Assembly (NCBI GenBank): GCA_034521575.1
Contig: JAXHMJ010000005.1
Coordinates: forward strand, 558,001-622,000
Origin: a candidate division KSB1 bacterium
GTDB taxonomy: Bacteria > Zhuqueibacterota > Zhuqueibacteria > Residuimicrobiales > Krinioviventaceae
Direction of reading: 5' to 3'
Length of the DNA stretch: 64,000 nt
Each line of letters starts with the position of its first letter. The first letter of the stretch is position 1. Below are positions 26,260 to 33,978 of this stretch, piece by piece. A model generated the notes under the pieces. It worked only from the letters and a program-made list of their open reading frames with translations, searched no databases and was not told the origin of the DNA. The position numbers were made by a program, and so were the translations under genes.

Positions 26260-27048
26260 CTATTTACCATTCATACAAATCGCCGATTTCACGCAACGCA
26301 CCAGGTTCCCTGCAGTTTCGGGTTTATCAGATGCTTTTTCCATTTCTCGAATCAGCCACGAACCGATGATCACACCATCAGCGTGTTTGCTGAAATCTTT
26401 GGCTGTTTCAATTGAGGAAATACCAAACCCCACACAAACCGGCAACTCCGTTGATGCCCTCAGAGCAGTCAGAGTCCCCGCTGCAACATGATCGGCTGAT
26501 TCGGCCCCGGTTGTGCTGTACTGGGAAATCACATAGACAAATCCACTGGAGGCCTTTAAAATTTCCTGCGACCGTTCCGTAAAGTCAGGAGCCAAAAGAT
26601 AAATCAAGGCCAGGCCATACCGACGGCAAACTGTTTCCATGGTTTCGCCTTCTTCAAACGGCAGATCCGCAATAATAAAGCCATCCACACCATGCGATTT
26701 AGCATCACGGACAAATGGTTCGATACCGTATTGAAACACCGGATTGCAATACCCCATCATCACGACCGGCGTATCGTAATTCTGTCGAAAGCGCTCCACC
26801 AGCTTGAAAATATCCATCAAAGTTATTTTATTGATGAGCGCACGAGCCGAGGAACGTTGAATGACCGGTCCTTCCGCCATCGGATCGGAAAAGGGCATAC
26901 CCAGTTCGATGACATCAGCGCCGCTATCCGCCATAGCGCTCATAATGTTCAGCGTGGTTTGTATATCCGGATCCCCGGCGGTAATGAAAAAGACACCGGC
27001 TTTGTCATTGCCTTTCAGGGTCTGAAACTGTTTATCCAGTCTATTCAT
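26260..27048 (-). CDS. trpA: Tryptophan synthase alpha chain
   Basis: Cleaves indole-3-glycerol phosphate to indole, which is channelled to TrpB. The 262 residues hold both catalytic acids: Glu in [11 protein letters not shown] and Asp in [11 protein letters not shown]. Other landmarks are [51 protein letters not shown], and [14 protein letters not shown] with GVIIGSWLI for phosphate binding. The start overlaps the trpB stop by 8 bases, the usual coupling. Last gene of the trp operon. Confidence 0.97.
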
Positions 27049-28219
27049 ATTCCGCCTCCTGTTTTTGCAGGGTTTTGGTGTCCTTGTCGCCGCGACCGGA
27101 CAGATTGATCAATATGGATTGTTCTTGACTCATTTTCGGAGCCAGCTTGAGCGCATAGGCCACCGCATGCGAACTTTCAAGCGCCGGGATAATGCCTTCC
27201 GTACAGGACAACAATCGAAAGGCTTCAATGGCTTGGTCATCTGTGACCGTCACATATTCGGCGCGCTTGCTTTCGGCATAATAGGCATGTTCGGGTCCCA
27301 CTCCCGGATAGTCCAGTCCGGCTGCCACAGAATGGGCGGGAACAATCTGACCCAATTGATCCTGTATAAATAGACTGCGTTTGCCGTGAAACACACCGTC
27401 GCGTCCATATTGGATGGAAGCGGCATTTTCACCGGGTTGCGTACCGTATCCACCAGCTTCCACCCCGATTAACCGCACATCCGTGTCCCGGAAGGGGTGA
27501 AAAATCCCCATAGCATTGCTGCCGCCGCCCACACAGGCTACGATGACATCAGGCTGATCAATGCCGAATTCTTTAATCTGCTCGCGCGCCTCTCTGCCGA
27601 TCACGGACTGAAAATCGCGCACCATCAAAGGAAACGGATGCGGTCCGACAACCGATCCCAGGATATACTGAGTATCTGCTACCGAGGTAATCCAGGCGCG
27701 CATGGCTTCGGTCGTGGCATCTTTGAGCGTGCGGGAGCCGCTGGTCACGGGTTCAACACGAGCGCCCAGCAGCCGCATGCGAAACACATTCAGCTCCTGA
27801 CGACGCATGTCTTCCTCTCCCATATAGATAGTGCAATCAAGTCCCATCAGAGCAGCCACCGTCGCGGTTGCCACACCATGCTGACCGGCTCCGGTTTCGG
27901 CAATCACTTTGGGCTTTTTCATTTTTTTCGTCAGCAGCGCCTGACCCAGGCAATTGTTGAGTTTATGCGAGCCGGTATGATTCAGATCCTCGCGTTTGAG
28001 CAACAGCTGTGCTCCGCCGGTCTGTTCGCTCAGCCGTCTCGCCTTATAAACAGGTGTCGGGCGGCCGCTGTAATGATTGTACAGGTCGAACAATTCATTT
28101 TGAAAATCATCCGTACAGGCAATGTCATGATAGCCCTGCTCCAGTTCGCTCAGAGCCGGCATCAAAAGTTCAGGGACATACTGTCCGCCAAACGATCCGT
28201 AATATCCTTTTTGACGCAT
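27041..28219 (-). CDS. trpB: Tryptophan synthase beta chain
   Basis: PLP enzyme that joins indole and serine to give tryptophan, in a complex with TrpA. Seen: [19 protein letters not shown], the PLP lysine in [42 protein letters not shown], the phosphate-binding [10 protein letters not shown], and [18 protein letters not shown] start at 28219 ([12 protein letters not shown], 392 residues) because GAGGAA lies 7 bases before it; a TTG 7 codons earlier at 28240 abuts the trpF stop but has no site. TrpB1-type by sequence, as expected next to trpA. Confidence 0.97.
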
Positions 28220-28240
28220 ATTTTTCCTCATAATATTCAA

Positions 28241-28846
28241 TTAAATCCTGTCCAAAAGTTGCGCCGCCTGTTTTAGGGCATAATGATCCTTGATCCCCGG
28301 TGACATTTCCAGCGCTGAATTCATATCCAGTCCAAACGGGTGGTACCGCTCAATTAACGTGAGCGCGTTGTCCGGTCCAACACCTCCGGCCAAAATCACA
28401 CGCGAATAATCCGCAACCTGATCAAGAATATCCAGGCTGATGCGTTTTCCGGTGCCGCCGGCGCGCTGTGGTTCCCAGGCGTCGAGGAGCAGCATCACAG
28501 AATCCGAATAGCGCCACAAATCATTCAATGACCGTGCATCCCGGACCCGAAACGCCTTGATGATCGAGCCGCCGAGTTCCCGACAGTATTCCGGGGATTC
28601 ATCGCCATGCAGCTGCACCCGATCGAGTCGGCAGGCATCACGAACTTTACGGACGGATTCGACGGCCTGATTCATAAACACACCGACTGTTTCCACACCG
28701 CTCAAATCACGTGTCAGTTCACGCACCTGTTCCGGATTCACCTGTCTCGGACTGGGGGCGAAAATAAATCCCAGCCACTCCACTCCGCATTCAACCGCAC
28801 AATTTATATCTTTACGCCGGGTCATACCGCAGACTTTCCAGATCAT
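28241..28846 (-). CDS. trpF: Phosphoribosylanthranilate isomerase
   Basis: Amadori isomerase converting phosphoribosylanthranilate to CdRP. The 201 residues show the catalytic Cys in KVCGMTRRKDINCAVECGVE, GFIFAPSPRQV, VGVFMNQAVESV, VQLHGDESPEYC, the late catalytic Asp region in LLLDAWEP...GTGKRISLDIL, ILAGGVGPDNAL, and GLDMNSALEMSPGIKD. The start overlaps the trpC stop by 4 bases (ATGA type). Monofunctional, not fused to trpC. Confidence 0.96.
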   Translation of the reverse strand: MIWKVCGMTRRKDINCAVECGVEWLGFIFAPSPRQVNPEQVRELTRDLSGVETVGVFMNQAVESVRKVRDACRLDRVQLHGDESPEYCRELGGSIIKAFRVRDARSLNDLWRYSDSVMLLLDAWEPQRAGGTGKRISLDILDQVADYSRVILAGGVGPDNALTLIERYHPFGLDMNSALEMSPGIKDHYALKQAAQLLDRI

Positions 28847-29622
28847 ACGCCCCTCAACCGTCGCAAGTGAGCGGCTGGATGCGATTTCCGCATCAGAGAT
28901 TCACCAATAAGACAGGCATGAAATCCGGCCTTTTCGAGCATGACCACATCCTCGCGTTTCTGGATGCCGCTTTCGCTCACTCGAATGACGGAATCCGGCA
29001 TGAGCCGGGATAATGCAAAGCTAATCTTCAAATCCACTTGAAATGTCTTGAGATCACGATTATTTACACCGACAATATCCGCGCCTGCGTTCAATGCGCG
29101 TTTTAATTCGTGTTTGTCATGCACTTCAACAAGAGCATGCATCCCTAATTCCTGTATGAGCTGTAAAAAGTCTTTGAGTTTTGTATCCTCCAGCACACAC
29201 ACCAACAGCAACACAGCGGCGGCCCGATGGCATTTGGCTTGATAAATTTGATAGGGATCGATGATAAAATCTTTGCGCAACAAGGGCAGTTCGACATGTT
29301 CAGCGACTGCATCAAGATAGGTGATATGACCCTGGAAAAACGGTTCATCTGTAAGAACGGAAACAGCAGACGCACCACCTCGTTCGTAGATCTGTGCCAT
29401 GTTTACGGGATCAAAATCTTTTTTGATCACTCCTTTGCTGGGTGACGCCTTTTTGATTTCAGCAATAACAGACAGTTCAGGTCGATTCAGGGCATCCCGA
29501 AATGAAGCATGCTCCGGTGCATTTTCCGCAAATTCCCGCAGCTTTGACTCTGAAATTCGTCGCTTACATCCGGCGACATGCTCACAGGTCTGCGCGATAA
29601 TCTTGTCTAAAATCATAGTCAT
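28843..29622 (-). CDS. trpC: Indole-3-glycerol-phosphate synthase
   Basis: Ring-closing decarboxylase converting CdRP to indole-3-glycerol phosphate. The 259 residues carry VIAEIKKASPSKGVI (catalytic Glu and Lys), ASAVSVLTDEPFFQG, LLRKDFIIDPYQIYQA (catalytic Lys), ALVEVHDKHELKRAL, IVGVNNRDLKTFQV, RVSESGIQKREDVVML and ACLIGESLMR. Three bases after trpD; overlaps trpF by 4. Confidence 0.97.
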   Translation of the reverse strand: MTMILDKIIAQTCEHVAGCKRRISESKLREFAENAPEHASFRDALNRPELSVIAEIKKASPSKGVIKKDFDPVNMAQIYERGGASAVSVLTDEPFFQGHITYLDAVAEHVELPLLRKDFIIDPYQIYQAKCHRAAAVLLLVCVLEDTKLKDFLQLIQELGMHALVEVHDKHELKRALNAGADIVGVNNRDLKTFQVDLKISFALSRLMPDSVIRVSESGIQKREDVVMLEKAGFHACLIGESLMRKSHPAAHLRRLRGV

Positions 29623-29625
29623 GGG

Positions 29626-30624
29626 CTAATTCTTTGAGATAGAGTGAGAATATTCGATCATCCTGTCGAGCATATCCCGGGCACGCCCGGATTTAATCAC
29701 GTCCCGCGCCTGCTCCACACCTTTAGAAAACGATGATACCTGTCCGGCGACATAAACCGCGGCGCCGGCGTTCAGGATGGTAATATCGGCAAACGGACTG
29801 TTTTCACCCTTGAAAATGGACTGCATAATACGGGCATTATCGACAGCCGTGCCGCCCTTGATCGTTTTTAGGGGAGCGCGTTCAATCCCGAATTGCTCCG
29901 GCGTTATGGTATACGACTCTAATCTACCGTTTTTGTATTCATTGACATAGGTTTCAGCGCTGATAGCGATTTCATCCATACCGTCGGCGCTGTGAACCAC
30001 CATCACATGTTCGCTGCCGGTATTCTGCAGCACCCGGGCGATCTTGTCCGCGGCATCTCGATTGAATGTTCCCACCACCTGGCGTCGGGCCATGGCCGGA
30101 TTGGACATGGGACCGAGCATATTGAACACGGTACGCACGCCCAGTTCACGACGCGGGGTAACCGCATGCTTCATGGAAGCATGATAGACCGGCGCAAACA
30201 GAAATGCCATGCCCAGTTCCTTGAGGCAGGTTTGGGCATCGACAGGCGTCATATCGATTTTCACACCCAATTCCTGCAGCACATCCGCGCTGCCGCATTT
30301 GCTGGATACCGAACGGTTTCCATGTTTGGCAATCGGCACCCCGGCCGCTGCCGCCACAAAAGCGGCTGCGGTGGAGATATTAAACGTATGATGCCCGTCG
30401 CCGCCGGTGCCGCAGGTATCCACCGTGCGGCCGGCTATATCTAGCTTCAAAGCCTTTTTCCGCATGGCCTGCACAAAACCGGTGACTTCACTGACGGATT
30501 CTCCCTTGATCTTTAGACCCATGAGCAAACCCGCGATTTGTGAAGGCGTCCATTCGCCTTGCATGATGGCGTTCATGACTCTTTCAGCATGAACCTGACT
30601 GAGATTCCAGTCCCTGACTGACAT
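29626..30624 (-). CDS. trpD: Anthranilate phosphoribosyltransferase
   Basis: Joins anthranilate to PRPP to give phosphoribosylanthranilate. The 332 residues show the PRPP loop VDTCGTGGDGHHTFNISTAA, AKHGNRSVSSKCGSADVLQELG, FLFAPVYHASMKHAVTPRRE (anthranilate-site His and Arg), RTVFNMLGPMSNPA and MVVHSADGMDEIAI. Monofunctional; trpG is a separate gene 21 bases upstream. PRPP comes from Prs, encoded at 12.7 kb. Confidence 0.97.
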   Translation of the reverse strand: MSVRDWNLSQVHAERVMNAIMQGEWTPSQIAGLLMGLKIKGESVSEVTGFVQAMRKKALKLDIAGRTVDTCGTGGDGHHTFNISTAAAFVAAAAGVPIAKHGNRSVSSKCGSADVLQELGVKIDMTPVDAQTCLKELGMAFLFAPVYHASMKHAVTPRRELGVRTVFNMLGPMSNPAMARRQVVGTFNRDAADKIARVLQNTGSEHVMVVHSADGMDEIAISAETYVNEYKNGRLESYTITPEQFGIERAPLKTIKGGTAVDNARIMQSIFKGENSPFADITILNAGAAVYVAGQVSSFSKGVEQARDVIKSGRARDMLDRMIEYSHSISKN

Positions 30625-30645
30625 ATTCCAACGTTTCTCGTATCA

Positions 30646-31215
30646 TCATTGTGTCTCCCCGATAAAATTTTCCATGATTTGTAGTCCTGATTGAGTTAAA
30701 ATAGATTCCGGGTGAAACTGCACCCCTTCAACCGGATATTGCTTGTGCCGCACGCCCATAATCATACCGTCTTTGAGTTGTGCTGATATTTCCAGACAAT
30801 CCGGCAGATTCAGCGGATCGATCATGAGAGAATGATAGCGCCCTGCCTGCAGCGGATTATCCACGTGATGAAAAATCGTCTTGCCGTCGTGATGCACCGG
30901 GCTGTCCTTGCCGTGCACCAGTTCCAGGGCCGGCACGATTTCGCCGCCGAACACCTGCCCCACCGCCTGATGCCCCAGACAAACCCCCAGAATAGGACAT
31001 TTGTCTTTGAAATGATCAATCACTTGCAGGGAAATACCGGACTCATCCGGATAACCCGGCCCCGGAGATATAATAATCCGCTCGGGCTGCATCATTTCAA
31101 TTTCTTTTAATGTGGTTTCATCGTTGCGCCGCACAATGATCTCGGCTCTCAGAGACCCCACATATTGCACCAGATTATAAGTAAATGAATCATAATTATC
31201 GATCATGACTATCAT
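30646..31215 (-). CDS. trpG: Anthranilate synthase glutamine amidotransferase subunit
   Basis: Hydrolyses glutamine and delivers ammonia to TrpE. The 189 residues show IDNYDSFTYNLVQYVGSL, IIISPGPGYPDESG (oxyanion strand), the nucleophile Cys in PILGVCLGHQAVGQVFGG, and the catalytic His-Glu in VEGVQFHPESILT. Overlaps the trpE stop by 4 bases. It could also serve PabB in folate synthesis, as in other bacteria, but no pabB is here. Confidence 0.96.
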   Translation of the reverse strand: MIVMIDNYDSFTYNLVQYVGSLRAEIIVRRNDETTLKEIEMMQPERIIISPGPGYPDESGISLQVIDHFKDKCPILGVCLGHQAVGQVFGGEIVPALELVHGKDSPVHHDGKTIFHHVDNPLQAGRYHSLMIDPLNLPDCLEISAQLKDGMIMGVRHKQYPVEGVQFHPESILTQSGLQIMENFIGETQ

Positions 31216-32687
31216 ACCAGACCTCCTCCGGCGTACTCGATTGCCTTTAACAGTGCATTGGCTTTGTTATAACATTCCTGATATTCTTTTTCCGGAACAG
31301 AATCCGCCACAATGCCGGCGCCCGCCTGTAAATAAGCGGTTTGTCCCTTGATATAAATGGTGCGAATCGCGATACAAACATCCATTTCACCGTTAAATGT
31401 CATATACCCGACAGCGCCGCCGTAAATACTGCGGCGAGTGGGTTCCAGTCGCTCAATGATTTCCATAGCCTTGACCTTGGGCGCGCCGGTCAGTGTGCCG
31501 GCCGGAAAACACGCCCGGAACACATCCACGGCATCCATATAGCGGGCTAGCTTACCAGTTACCGTGGAAACCAGATGAATCACATGCGAGTATTTCTCAA
31601 TTCCCATGTACTCGTCCACTTTGACCGTACCATATCGGGCGATTCGTCCGACATCATTGCGTCCCAGATCCACCAGCATGGTATGTTCGGCACGTTCTTT
31701 GGGATCCGCCAAAAGATCATCCACAAGCTCCTGATCCTGTTCTGCATCACGTCCGCGTTTGCGTGTGCCTGCTATTGGTTTTAAATACACGGTATTGTCC
31801 TTCAATTTGACCAGGGTTTCCGGGGACGCGCCCAGGACCTGGGCTCCATCCATATCCATATAAAACATATAAGGTGATGGATTGACCACGCGCAAAGCGC
31901 GGTAAATTTGAAAGGCCGGAATCCCGGTTTTAACTTCAAGACGCTGGGACAATACAATCTGAAAATTATCACCGCGTTTGATGTGCTGCTTGGCCCGCAT
32001 GACCATGCCTTCATATTCAGATTGCGACAAACAGGCATTGACATCAAATTCGGCAGATGACGATGTATCCGCATGTTCCGGCTGTGATGACTCGCGCAGG
32101 GTTTTGACAATGTTCTCGATACGGTTGACTGTTTTTTCATAGCTTTCGACAACCTGACCATCGGGACGGACAAACAGCAGGATATTTATTTTATGCAGCA
32201 CATTGTCAAATACAATAATCTTTTGCGGGATAAACATGTGAATATCGGGTAAATTGATATCATCCTGCGCCATATCCGGCAATTTTTCAATATAGCGAAC
32301 CGTGTCATACCCCAGGTACCCGAAAAACCCATTGGCATAAAAAGGTATATCCTGTCTCGGTTCAATAGCGTATTTTTTCAAAAGACTTTTCAGCACGTCC
32401 AGCGGATTGCTTTCAACCGTAAACCGGCTGTTATCCACTTTGTTTTCAACCGTTACATGCCGACCTTTGCTTTTGAAAATGATAAATGGTGTATCCCCGA
32501 TGATGGAATAACGACCGCGCTGAGTGGCGCTTTCCACGCTTTCAAGCAAAAAACGGAATGCTCCCTGCGTACATTTCAGAAACATAGTCACCGGCGTATC
32601 CAGATCACCTAATATTTCAGCCGCAACCGGAACCAGCGGATTTTGTTTCGACATCTGATCAAATTCAGCCAGAGATGTTTTTATCAT
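31212..32687 (-). CDS. trpE: Anthranilate synthase component I
   Basis: Chorismate-utilising enzyme that makes anthranilate with TrpG. The 491 residues show the N-terminal feedback region RFLLESVESATQRGRYSIIG (equivalent to the Trp-binding LLES motif of known TrpE, so tryptophan inhibition is expected), NGFFGYLGYDTVRYIEKLP, IVLSQRLEV, NPSPYMFYMD, GASPETLVKL, IAGTRKRG, HTMLVDLGRNDVGRIA, FRACFPAGTLTGAPKVKAMEII, and YGGAVGYMTFNGEMD. AGGAG lies 7 bases before the start. First structural gene after the attenuator. Confidence 0.97.
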   Translation of the reverse strand: MIKTSLAEFDQMSKQNPLVPVAAEILGDLDTPVTMFLKCTQGAFRFLLESVESATQRGRYSIIGDTPFIIFKSKGRHVTVENKVDNSRFTVESNPLDVLKSLLKKYAIEPRQDIPFYANGFFGYLGYDTVRYIEKLPDMAQDDINLPDIHMFIPQKIIVFDNVLHKINILLFVRPDGQVVESYEKTVNRIENIVKTLRESSQPEHADTSSSAEFDVNACLSQSEYEGMVMRAKQHIKRGDNFQIVLSQRLEVKTGIPAFQIYRALRVVNPSPYMFYMDMDGAQVLGASPETLVKLKDNTVYLKPIAGTRKRGRDAEQDQELVDDLLADPKERAEHTMLVDLGRNDVGRIARYGTVKVDEYMGIEKYSHVIHLVSTVTGKLARYMDAVDVFRACFPAGTLTGAPKVKAMEIIERLEPTRRSIYGGAVGYMTFNGEMDVCIAIRTIYIKGQTAYLQAGAGIVADSVPEKEYQECYNKANALLKAIEYAGGGLV

Positions 32688-32722: not shown

Positions 32723-32762
32723 AAAAAAAAGGGCGCTGTGAGTTTTGGGGTTCACAGCGCCC
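32723..32762 (-). terminator. trp attenuator terminator hairpin
   Basis: On the minus strand, arms 32762-32752 and 32741-32731 (GGGCGCTGTGA with its exact 11-base complement), a 10-base loop and an uninterrupted run of eight T (32730-32723). It lies between the leader peptide and trpE, 36 bases before the trpE start, so it stops transcription before the structural genes when tryptophan is plentiful (mechanism inferred from the classical trp attenuators). Confidence 0.9.
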
Positions 32763-32771
32763 TGAAGAGAA

Positions 32772-32802
32772 AACGCCGTGAATGCGGTGCATCCACGGCG
32801 TT
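32772..32802 (-). other. Second leader hairpin before the attenuator
   Basis: Arms 32802-32794 and 32780-32772 (AACGCCGTG with its exact complement), 13-base loop, followed on the minus strand by TTTTCTCTT. It may itself pause or terminate, or its 5' arm may pair partly with the first arm of the attenuator. Its exact role needs an RNA-folding calculation. Confidence 0.6.
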
Positions 32803-32825
32803 GATATTTTTATGTTGATATTAAA

Positions 32826-32906
32826 CTATTTGCCTGTGGCGCACCTCGTTATAAAGGTCCACCACCACCAGAAATTTGCATTGTTTATGTTTAATACCAA
32901 ATTCAT
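32826..32906 (-). CDS. trpL: trp operon leader peptide with four tandem Trp codons
   Basis: A 26-residue frame on the minus strand starts at ATG 32906 (AGGAT 7 bases before it) and ends at TAG 32826. Codons 13-16 are TGG TGG TGG TGG (32870-32859). Immediately after them, GGTGGACCT (32863-32855) can pair with AGGTGCGCC (32846-32838), giving a hairpin that a ribosome stalled on the Trp codons would disrupt. GCGCC of that second arm is complementary to GGCGC in the 5' arm of the terminator hairpin, so a classical 1:2 / 2:3 / 3:4 switch can be drawn. Too short for most gene finders. Confidence 0.92.
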   Translation of the reverse strand: MNLVLNINNANFWWWWTFITRCATGK

Positions 32907-32935
32907 TTCAATCCTGTTTGTTAAAATTGAATGTA

Positions 32936-32964
32936 AATATAGCATCTATTCATATAAAAAGCAA
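32936..32964 (-). promoter_or_regulatory. Candidate trp operon promoter
   Basis: On the minus strand, TTGCTT (32964-32959) and TATATT (32941-32936) are separated by exactly 17 bases; the start of transcription would be near 32929, about 23 bases before the leader-peptide ATG. The -10 fits the sigma-70 consensus well and the -35 only partly. No operator-like palindrome is evident. Confidence 0.5.
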
Positions 32965-33023: not shown

Positions 33024-33308
33024 TCAAATAGAATCTACATCGGCATATTTGGCCAGAATATCACCGACCGGCACCAGGATATATTCATTGTTCTCAAAGG
33101 TTATATTTGTGCCGGAAAACGGTTTGTAAATCACTTTATCTCCCACGGCTATCTGTTCAGAAGCGTCTGCGGCAATATTCTCGACCAGGCCCTCATTGGG
33201 TTTTTCTTTAGCCGTATCCGGAATAATGATACCGCTGTCCGTTTGCTGTTCTCCGGATTCCTCGAACCGAATCAACACATAGCCATTTACAGGTTGAATC
33301 TTTCTCAT
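33024..33308 (-). CDS. groES: GroES-type co-chaperonin, without groEL nearby
   Basis: Cap of the GroEL folding chamber. The 94 residues follow the Cpn10 pattern: RKIQPVNGYVLIRFEE, the mobile-loop region EQQTDSGIIIPDTAKEKPNEG, AVGDKVIYKPFSGTNITFEN and EYILVPVGDILAKY. It diverges from typical GroES in places (GYVLIRFEESGE), and no groEL is adjacent. It may be a second, specialised copy. It lies 15 bases after the Trx-Grx gene and just upstream of the trp promoter. Confidence 0.85.
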   Translation of the reverse strand: MRKIQPVNGYVLIRFEESGEQQTDSGIIIPDTAKEKPNEGLVENIAADASEQIAVGDKVIYKPFSGTNITFENNEYILVPVGDILAKYADVDSI

Positions 33309-33323
33309 CTTATTTCCTCCTTT

Positions 33324-33905
33324 TTATCGGGTCAATCCCAGCAAGTTATCTATTCTCTGCTGATCAAATCCAACGATCCATTGTCCGTCAATTTCGGTCT
33401 GCGGCACACCGGTTTGACCGGTGCGTTCCATGAGTTGCTGCGCCGCCTGCTGATCCCGGGATACATCCACATCCTGAAAGCGAACGCGGTTTTGCCGCAA
33501 ATGCTGTTTTAGCCGAGTGCACCAGCTGCAGGTGGGAGTGCTGTAAACCACAACATGGTGCTGACGTTCATCGGATTCCGAGCCGAATGCCTGCGGCGAG
33601 TCATAGAACAACAGTTCATAATGCTGTTGACTCTGCAATCCCTGCACGGTCTTGACCGGTTTGGCATTTTTTAGAACGAGAACAGTGGGCACACTGTTCA
33701 CGCCATAAGCGGAATGAAGGGTTCTCACGGCGGAGGCATCCACCAGAGCCACAGGCACCTCCTCAAATCCAGCAGAGGCCTCTACCACGCGGGATTTTGC
33801 CTGCAAGCTGGTCTCCGATGCCGGTGTATAAAACATCAAAAGAACAACATCCTGATCGTTGACAAGACGATCCAGTTCCTGTTTGTTTTCAATCTGCACA
33901 ATCAT
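33324..33905 (-). CDS. Thioredoxin-like/glutaredoxin fusion with a redox-dead Trx domain
   Basis: Residues 1-100 have the thioredoxin fold pattern (VVLLMFYTPASETSLQAK; YGVNSVPTVLVLKN with the cis-proline), but the WCxxC site is replaced by TPASET, so this half should lack disulfide activity. Residues about 110-193 are a glutaredoxin (VVYSTPTCSWCTRLKQHL with CSWC; TGQTGVPQTEIDG; VGFDQQRIDNLLGL). I start at ATG 33905 with GGAG 7 bases upstream, not at TTG 33920. The glutaredoxin half probably acts as a disulfide or iron-sulfur handling module. It lies between corA and groES in a minus-strand run. Confidence 0.85.
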   Translation of the reverse strand: MIVQIENKQELDRLVNDQDVVLLMFYTPASETSLQAKSRVVEASAGFEEVPVALVDASAVRTLHSAYGVNSVPTVLVLKNAKPVKTVQGLQSQQHYELLFYDSPQAFGSESDERQHHVVVYSTPTCSWCTRLKQHLRQNRVRFQDVDVSRDQQAAQQLMERTGQTGVPQTEIDGQWIVGFDQQRIDNLLGLTR

Positions 33906-33978
33906 AGACACTCCATCCAATTTCAGTCCAGCTTTTTATTCATTAGATGAAAAAACAGGAAAAAGATGCAGAAAAAAA

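Follow-up and report, generated by a model that had tools for sequence, protein, structure and literature searches.

The trpEGDCFBA operon in the 64,000-nucleotide stretch of DNA analysed here (the window) is preceded by a leader that very probably acts as a ribosome-mediated transcription attenuator with a six-segment switch of the his type. This reading is carried by the computed anatomy of the leader, its conservation in relatives, the covariation between segments B and C, and a flip of the predicted fold when the Trp codons are masked. Because the alternative pairings are B:C, which covaries clearly, and D:E, which covaries modestly, the middle hairpin C:D would be the core of the switch. 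C:D also has its own U-rich tail and is therefore probably a first terminator, so that one sensor would control two successive terminators. The fullest form of this reading, a trp attenuator in which a single stalled-ribosome sensor governs a his-type cascade with two terminators in tandem, in lineages of an FCB phylum that lack TrpR, is one that we favour with some hesitation.

Leader anatomy, proposed mechanism and folding

The sequence-only reading had named a promoter-like pair, a 26-codon leader with four TGG codons, a hairpin over these codons, a second hairpin at 32802-32772 and a terminator with eight T before trpE, all of which were recovered in our analysis (Table 1), the hairpin over the Trp codons by folding. 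The arms of the main terminator, GGGCGCTGTGA and TCACAGCGCCC, are followed by T8, and E:F of the window, at -20.7 kcal/mol and with U8, is a strong terminator placed shortly before trpE. Of the eight positions after the middle hairpin, six or more are U in 13/13 sequences, and C:D of the window scored terminator-like, its tail UUUCUCUU being weaker than in most relatives. The leader RNA as a whole folds with a z score of -6.75 against dinucleotide shuffles (0/200 shuffles as good). Additionally, TGGTGGTGGTGG occurs in five copies in the whole 5.26 Mb genome, namely the leader copy and four others that cross long reading frames and are read there mostly as Val or Gly. The operon behind the leader is an intact trpEGDCFBA, in which trpF is called from best matches to phosphoribosylanthranilate isomerase models, all below cut-off.

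Table 1. Features of the trp leader and operon, in window positions
Feature	Position	Strand	Evidence
Sigma-70-like promoter TTGCTT (32964-32959)-N17-TATATT (32941-32936)	32936..32964	-	sequence
AGGA, likely ribosome-binding site for the leader peptide	32912..32915	-	sequence
Leader peptide ORF MNLVLNINNANFWWWWTFITRCATGK, 26 codons, ATG 32906, stop TAG 32828-32826	32826..32906	-	
Four consecutive TGG (Trp) control codons	32859..32870	-	
Segment A, overlaps the Trp codons; partner B if ribosome-free; presumed pause hairpin	32854..32865	-	folding
Segment B, end of leader ORF; partner A or C	32836..32847	-	folding and B:C covariation
Segment C, middle hairpin 5' arm plus loop; B pairs with GUGGAUGCACC (32796-32786)	32786..32802	-	
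Segment D, middle hairpin 3' arm; potential partner of E: UUCACGGCGUU (32782-32772)	32772..32785	-	
U-rich tract UUUCUCUU directly after C:D; C:D likely first terminator	32764..32771	-	
Segment E, main terminator 5' arm; potential partner of D: GGCGCUGUGAA (32761-32751)	32752..32762	-	
Segment F, 3' arm of main terminator	32731..32741	-	
U8 tract of main terminator	32723..32730	-	sequence
trpE, anthranilate synthase component I	31212..32687	-	TIGR00564, 578 bits (cut-off 517.7)
trpG, trpD, trpC, trpF, trpB, trpA (rest of operon)	26260..31215	-	profile matches

In the proposed mechanism, scarcity of charged tRNA-Trp would cause the ribosome to stall on the four UGG codons and cover segment A, whereupon B would pair with C and the middle hairpin C:D would be blocked. 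Segment D, freed in this way, would pair with E, block the E:F terminator and let transcription proceed into trpE. With ample Trp, the ribosome would reach the stop codon and cover B, allowing C:D and then E:F to form and transcription to end; with no ribosome on the leader, A:B would form, followed by C:D and E:F, and termination would likewise result. From this model we infer transcription of the leader in vivo, stalling of the ribosome, termination at either hairpin and a response to Trp.

Folding with a simulated ribosome reproduces such a switch. Specifically, when the A site holds any of Trp codons 2-4, the window transcript up to E adopts B:C plus D:E at 99%, and when it holds the first Trp codon the states are mixed, at 36% against 64%. 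A ribosome at the stop codon, or no ribosome at all, leads to C:D in that transcript and to E:F in the full transcript. Masking the Trp codons thus switches the fold to an antiterminator that competes with the terminator, the behaviour that the sequence-only reading had proposed to look for. The flip occurs at one or more Trp codons in 12/13 sequences; the leader L008 did not flip at any Trp codon in the folding model, and L014 adopts the antiterminator fold in the model even without a ribosome. At equilibrium, the complete transcript always folds into the terminator, and C:D also beats B:C just after D has been made. Because the terminator is favoured at equilibrium, antitermination must be kinetic, as is likewise assumed for classical attenuators.

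Pairing of the alternative segments and rival readings

Pair counts were taken from a hand-segmented alignment, A2, in which short bulges in B were removed in five rows, and not from the MAFFT alignment A1, which puts segment E of L018 in the wrong place. Among the 13 sequences, cognate B:C duplexes reach -16.8 kcal/mol against -13.6 kcal/mol for swapped ones (p≤5e-5 overall, 1e-4 within clades). In this pairing 96.2% of cells are paired, 7 of 10 pairs show two-sided changes, and the covariation score is 0.478 against 0.200 for shuffled alignments (0/500), slid versions giving at most 0.127. The match between the two segments is species-specific: AAUGUA faces UGCAUU in L008, AGUGUA faces UGCACU in L009 and GGGUAG faces CUACCC in L013, B:C of L014 is a 12-bp helix, and L018 has yet another sequence. 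Some of the varying bases belong to the loop of C:D, so pairing within C:D cannot account for them. The two hairpins themselves are well kept, with pairing at 100% for C:D and 97.4% for E:F. For D:E, 93.7% of cells are paired and two pairs show two-sided changes, G-C to C-G in three sequences and U-A to C-G in L009. The swap test for D:E gives p 5e-4 overall and 0.11 within clades, and its count of two-sided pairs is equalled by 103/500 shuffles. The covariation of D:E is thus modest, and the case for this predicted pairing consists of its retention, its change between clades and the need to disarm E:F.

These comparisons bear directly on two other ways of reading the same segments. In a four-segment trp attenuator, B would pair with E directly and the middle hairpin would be decoration. 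The sequence-only reading had pointed to a pairing of this kind between GCGCC in B and GGCGC in E, and the five-nucleotide complementarity does exist in the window, where the duplex reaches -12.0 kcal/mol, but it is not kept in relatives: cognate B:E duplexes (-9.45 kcal/mol) are no better than swapped ones (-10.39 kcal/mol; p 0.97 overall and within clades) and are weaker than B:C in every one of the 13 sequences. On the swap test we reject B:E as the antiterminator, and we regard the four-segment layout as very unlikely. The covariance check that the same reading had proposed on aligned trpE upstream regions came out for B:C and against B:E. It is also conceivable, although in our judgement improbable, that only the first hairpin is switched, with B:C opposing the U-tailed C:D, D:E arising as a by-product of duplication, and E:F being leaky or overcome in some other way. 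The U-rich tail in 13/13 sequences, the resemblance of C to E and of D to F, and the lack of significant D:E covariation within clades all fit such an arrangement. On the other hand, E:F is strong and lies just before trpE, so that without D:E nearly all transcription would stop, and D:E has been retained although D and E have each changed, with two pairs compensated.

A third possibility is that Trp control is exerted by TRAP, a protein, or by uncharged tRNA through a T-box, and that the leader ORF is incidental; both mechanisms govern trp genes in other bacteria. For TRAP such control is documented (PMC4027176), but TRAP (MtrB) had no match in the own genome of the window, and a search of the window and the loci of 16 relatives gave no Rfam match at gathering score, whether to T-box, Trp_leader (RF00513), His_leader or any other model. 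At E up to 10, only sub-threshold chance matches were obtained in the leader region. Given that the run of Trp codons is also kept across seven families, such control, at least by the known families of regulators, is scarcely credible here. The six-segment switch driven by a stalled ribosome, in which B:C and D:E are the alternatives to C:D and E:F, is the reading that we retain below.

Distribution of the leader, TrpR and other attenuators

A leader with a Trp run and two strong hairpins before trpE was found in 13 genomes from seven families (f1, f3, f5, f8, f12, f13 and f15), all of one phylum, candidate division KSB1 or Ca. Zhuqueibacterota, of the FCB group. Three or four consecutive TGG codons are present in 13/13 leaders, and in no fewer than 11 of the 13 the run lies 11-13 codons past a usable start. 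In f1, f3 and f5, the leader is present in every trpE-matching genome with upstream sequence, one locus (L005 of G006) lying at a contig edge. A promoter resembling TTGACA, TTGACT or TTGCAA-N16-17-TATATT or TATCTT stands at a similar position in 10 of the 12 other leaders, and no promoter-like site was found at L004 and L014. Taken together with the B:C covariation and the folding flip, these leaders support the ribosome-mediated Trp attenuator proposed from the window sequence, including the conservation of the leader frame and of the Trp codons in relatives. The earlier assignment to an FCB-type genome likewise agrees with the named relatives, which belong to candidate division KSB1.

The covariance model R1 was run on 63 genomes of the class and 82 of the phylum, and gave strong matches (E < 1e-12) only at these trpE leaders, several of which had been in its training set, that of G065 not among them; weak matches (E 1e-6 to 1e-3) were left out of the counts. 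Used as a DNA pattern against named genomes, the middle hairpin gave nine matches, seven of which are trpE leaders of relatives, in candidate division KSB1 MAGs, a Calditrichota-labelled MAG, a MAG labelled 'bacterium' and Bacterium BMS3Bbin03, whose leader is identical to that of G064. The two remaining matches, in Eisenbacteria and Rothia (L035 and L036), lack a Trp leader and are unrelated hairpins. A TrpE protein search of the named genomes returned no matches, and neither poly-His nor poly-Phe leaders were found in the own genome of the window.

Two leaders from another class of the phylum (L061 and L062, in G064 and G065) precede TrpE proteins that are 57-58% identical to that of the window, and TrpE of other families in the window's own class reaches about 47% identity or less. 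The closeness of both TrpE and attenuator hints at horizontal transfer of the operon together with its leader.

Elf and Ehrenberg proposed that, since his is governed by attenuation alone, its extra hairpin serves to lower basal read-through, whereas E. coli trp, with its repressor, calls for a leaky attenuator (PMC1183508). By this rule, no TrpR would be expected alongside the present leader. TrpR (PF01371) scored above the curated cut-off in 5 of the 82 phylum genomes, all in f19 and f20, and in 0/13 attenuator genomes, an absence that would be weak evidence in a single incomplete MAG and is consistent across the 13. This absence is consistent with attenuation as the sole control. In this phylum sample, TrpR and attenuation are mutually exclusive. 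The correlation of TrpR absence with the extra hairpin is only partial, because families with a simpler attenuator also lack TrpR. The trp attenuator with the extra hairpin occurs only in genomes without detectable TrpR, and TrpR only in families whose trpE is leaderless, a distribution that makes the design rule testable by comparison. If our reading is correct, these genomes offer a natural test of the extra hairpin as a means of low basal read-through where no repressor helps.

In families f18-f23 (L072-L073, L068-L070 and L074-L077, in G070-G081), trpE has no Trp leader; it mostly follows an apparent trpA end and otherwise stands in a different context.

The simpler attenuator is found in f9, f10, f11, f16 and f7 and has a Trp-rich leader that is often mixed with Tyr and Phe, for example WFWYWYYYYASSG; there is a single terminator, whose 5' arm has its complement in an AGTGGGA-like segment of the leader's coding sequence. 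Its swap test gives p 5e-5 (18 sequences; automatic hairpin picking failed for L016, L019 and L023). Mixed Trp/Tyr/Phe leaders lie upstream of trpE at nine loci from other families of the same class (L020, L022, L023, L025, L026, L011, L012, L016 and L019), and their codon content suggests that they may sense several aromatic amino acids at once. In several simpler attenuators the stop codon of the leader is located far downstream of the pairing segment, an arrangement that may correspond to the other strategy that Elf and Ehrenberg named for keeping basal read-through low (PMC1183508). Additionally, three leaders of f7 upstream of trpE (L015, L017 and L024) show a third design, in which the Trp run is followed by ...VRPGSS or VRSDSS and a leader GGGTGCG or GGGTACG pairs with the loop side of a GGCCACGGGCGTACCCCCGTGGCC terminator.

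Relation to known attenuators and neighbouring genes

The his attenuator of E. coli and Salmonella is off when AB, CD and EF form and on when BC and DE form (PMC10989985). The window leader shares with it a division into six segments, with a middle hairpin inserted before the terminator and after the hairpin over the control codons, the BC alternative, a run of control codons and an operon without a known repressor; the DE alternative is predicted here as well. It differs in its Trp codons, in the trp operon that it precedes and in its phylum, and sequence similarity was not detected with Rfam. Furthermore, its middle hairpin has a U-rich tail of its own, whereas uridines are described only after EF in the his attenuator (PMC10989985). 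With E. coli trpL (four segments, RF00513), the leader shares Trp codons in a short ORF before trpE and an intrinsic terminator; unlike trpL, it has no direct 2:3 antiterminator with the 5' arm of the terminator, it contains the extra C:D hairpin, its genome lacks TrpR, and the Rfam model does not recognise it. The sequence-only reading had placed the middle hairpin outside the textbook layout, which is true of the four-segment E. coli trp leader but not of the his layout, where such a hairpin is known (PMC10989985; PMC1183508).

Attenuation by a Trp leader peptide outside Proteobacteria is also known from Corynebacterium and Streptomyces, for which one antiterminator and one terminator hairpin are described (PMC1262725). 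The rimP-leader of Gammaproteobacteria has two tandem terminators and a potential antiterminator, as here, but neither a leader-peptide sensor nor an amino-acid operon (PMC2965389). For amino-acid operons, attenuation by leader peptides had by 2010 been described chiefly from Proteobacteria and Actinobacteria (PMC2965389). The six-segment his layout is known, and what appears to be new is its use for trp in an FCB phylum, probably with a double terminator. The covariation points to leader-peptide attenuation in an uncultured FCB phylum, with the his architecture employed for trp, and the alignment could seed a new RNA family model. A search of literature readable without subscription returned no prior report of this trp attenuator. 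Work on attenuators by Vitreschak et al. in 2004 reportedly may already include some Bacteroidetes/Chlorobi cases.

Upstream of the leader, a short GroES-like (Cpn10) gene (33024-33308, minus strand) ends 60 bases 5' of the trp promoter. No clear terminator was seen between this gene and the promoter, so read-through into the trp leader is possible. The GroES-like gene is adjoined by a fusion of thioredoxin-like and glutaredoxin (YruB family) parts at 33324-33920, also on the minus strand.
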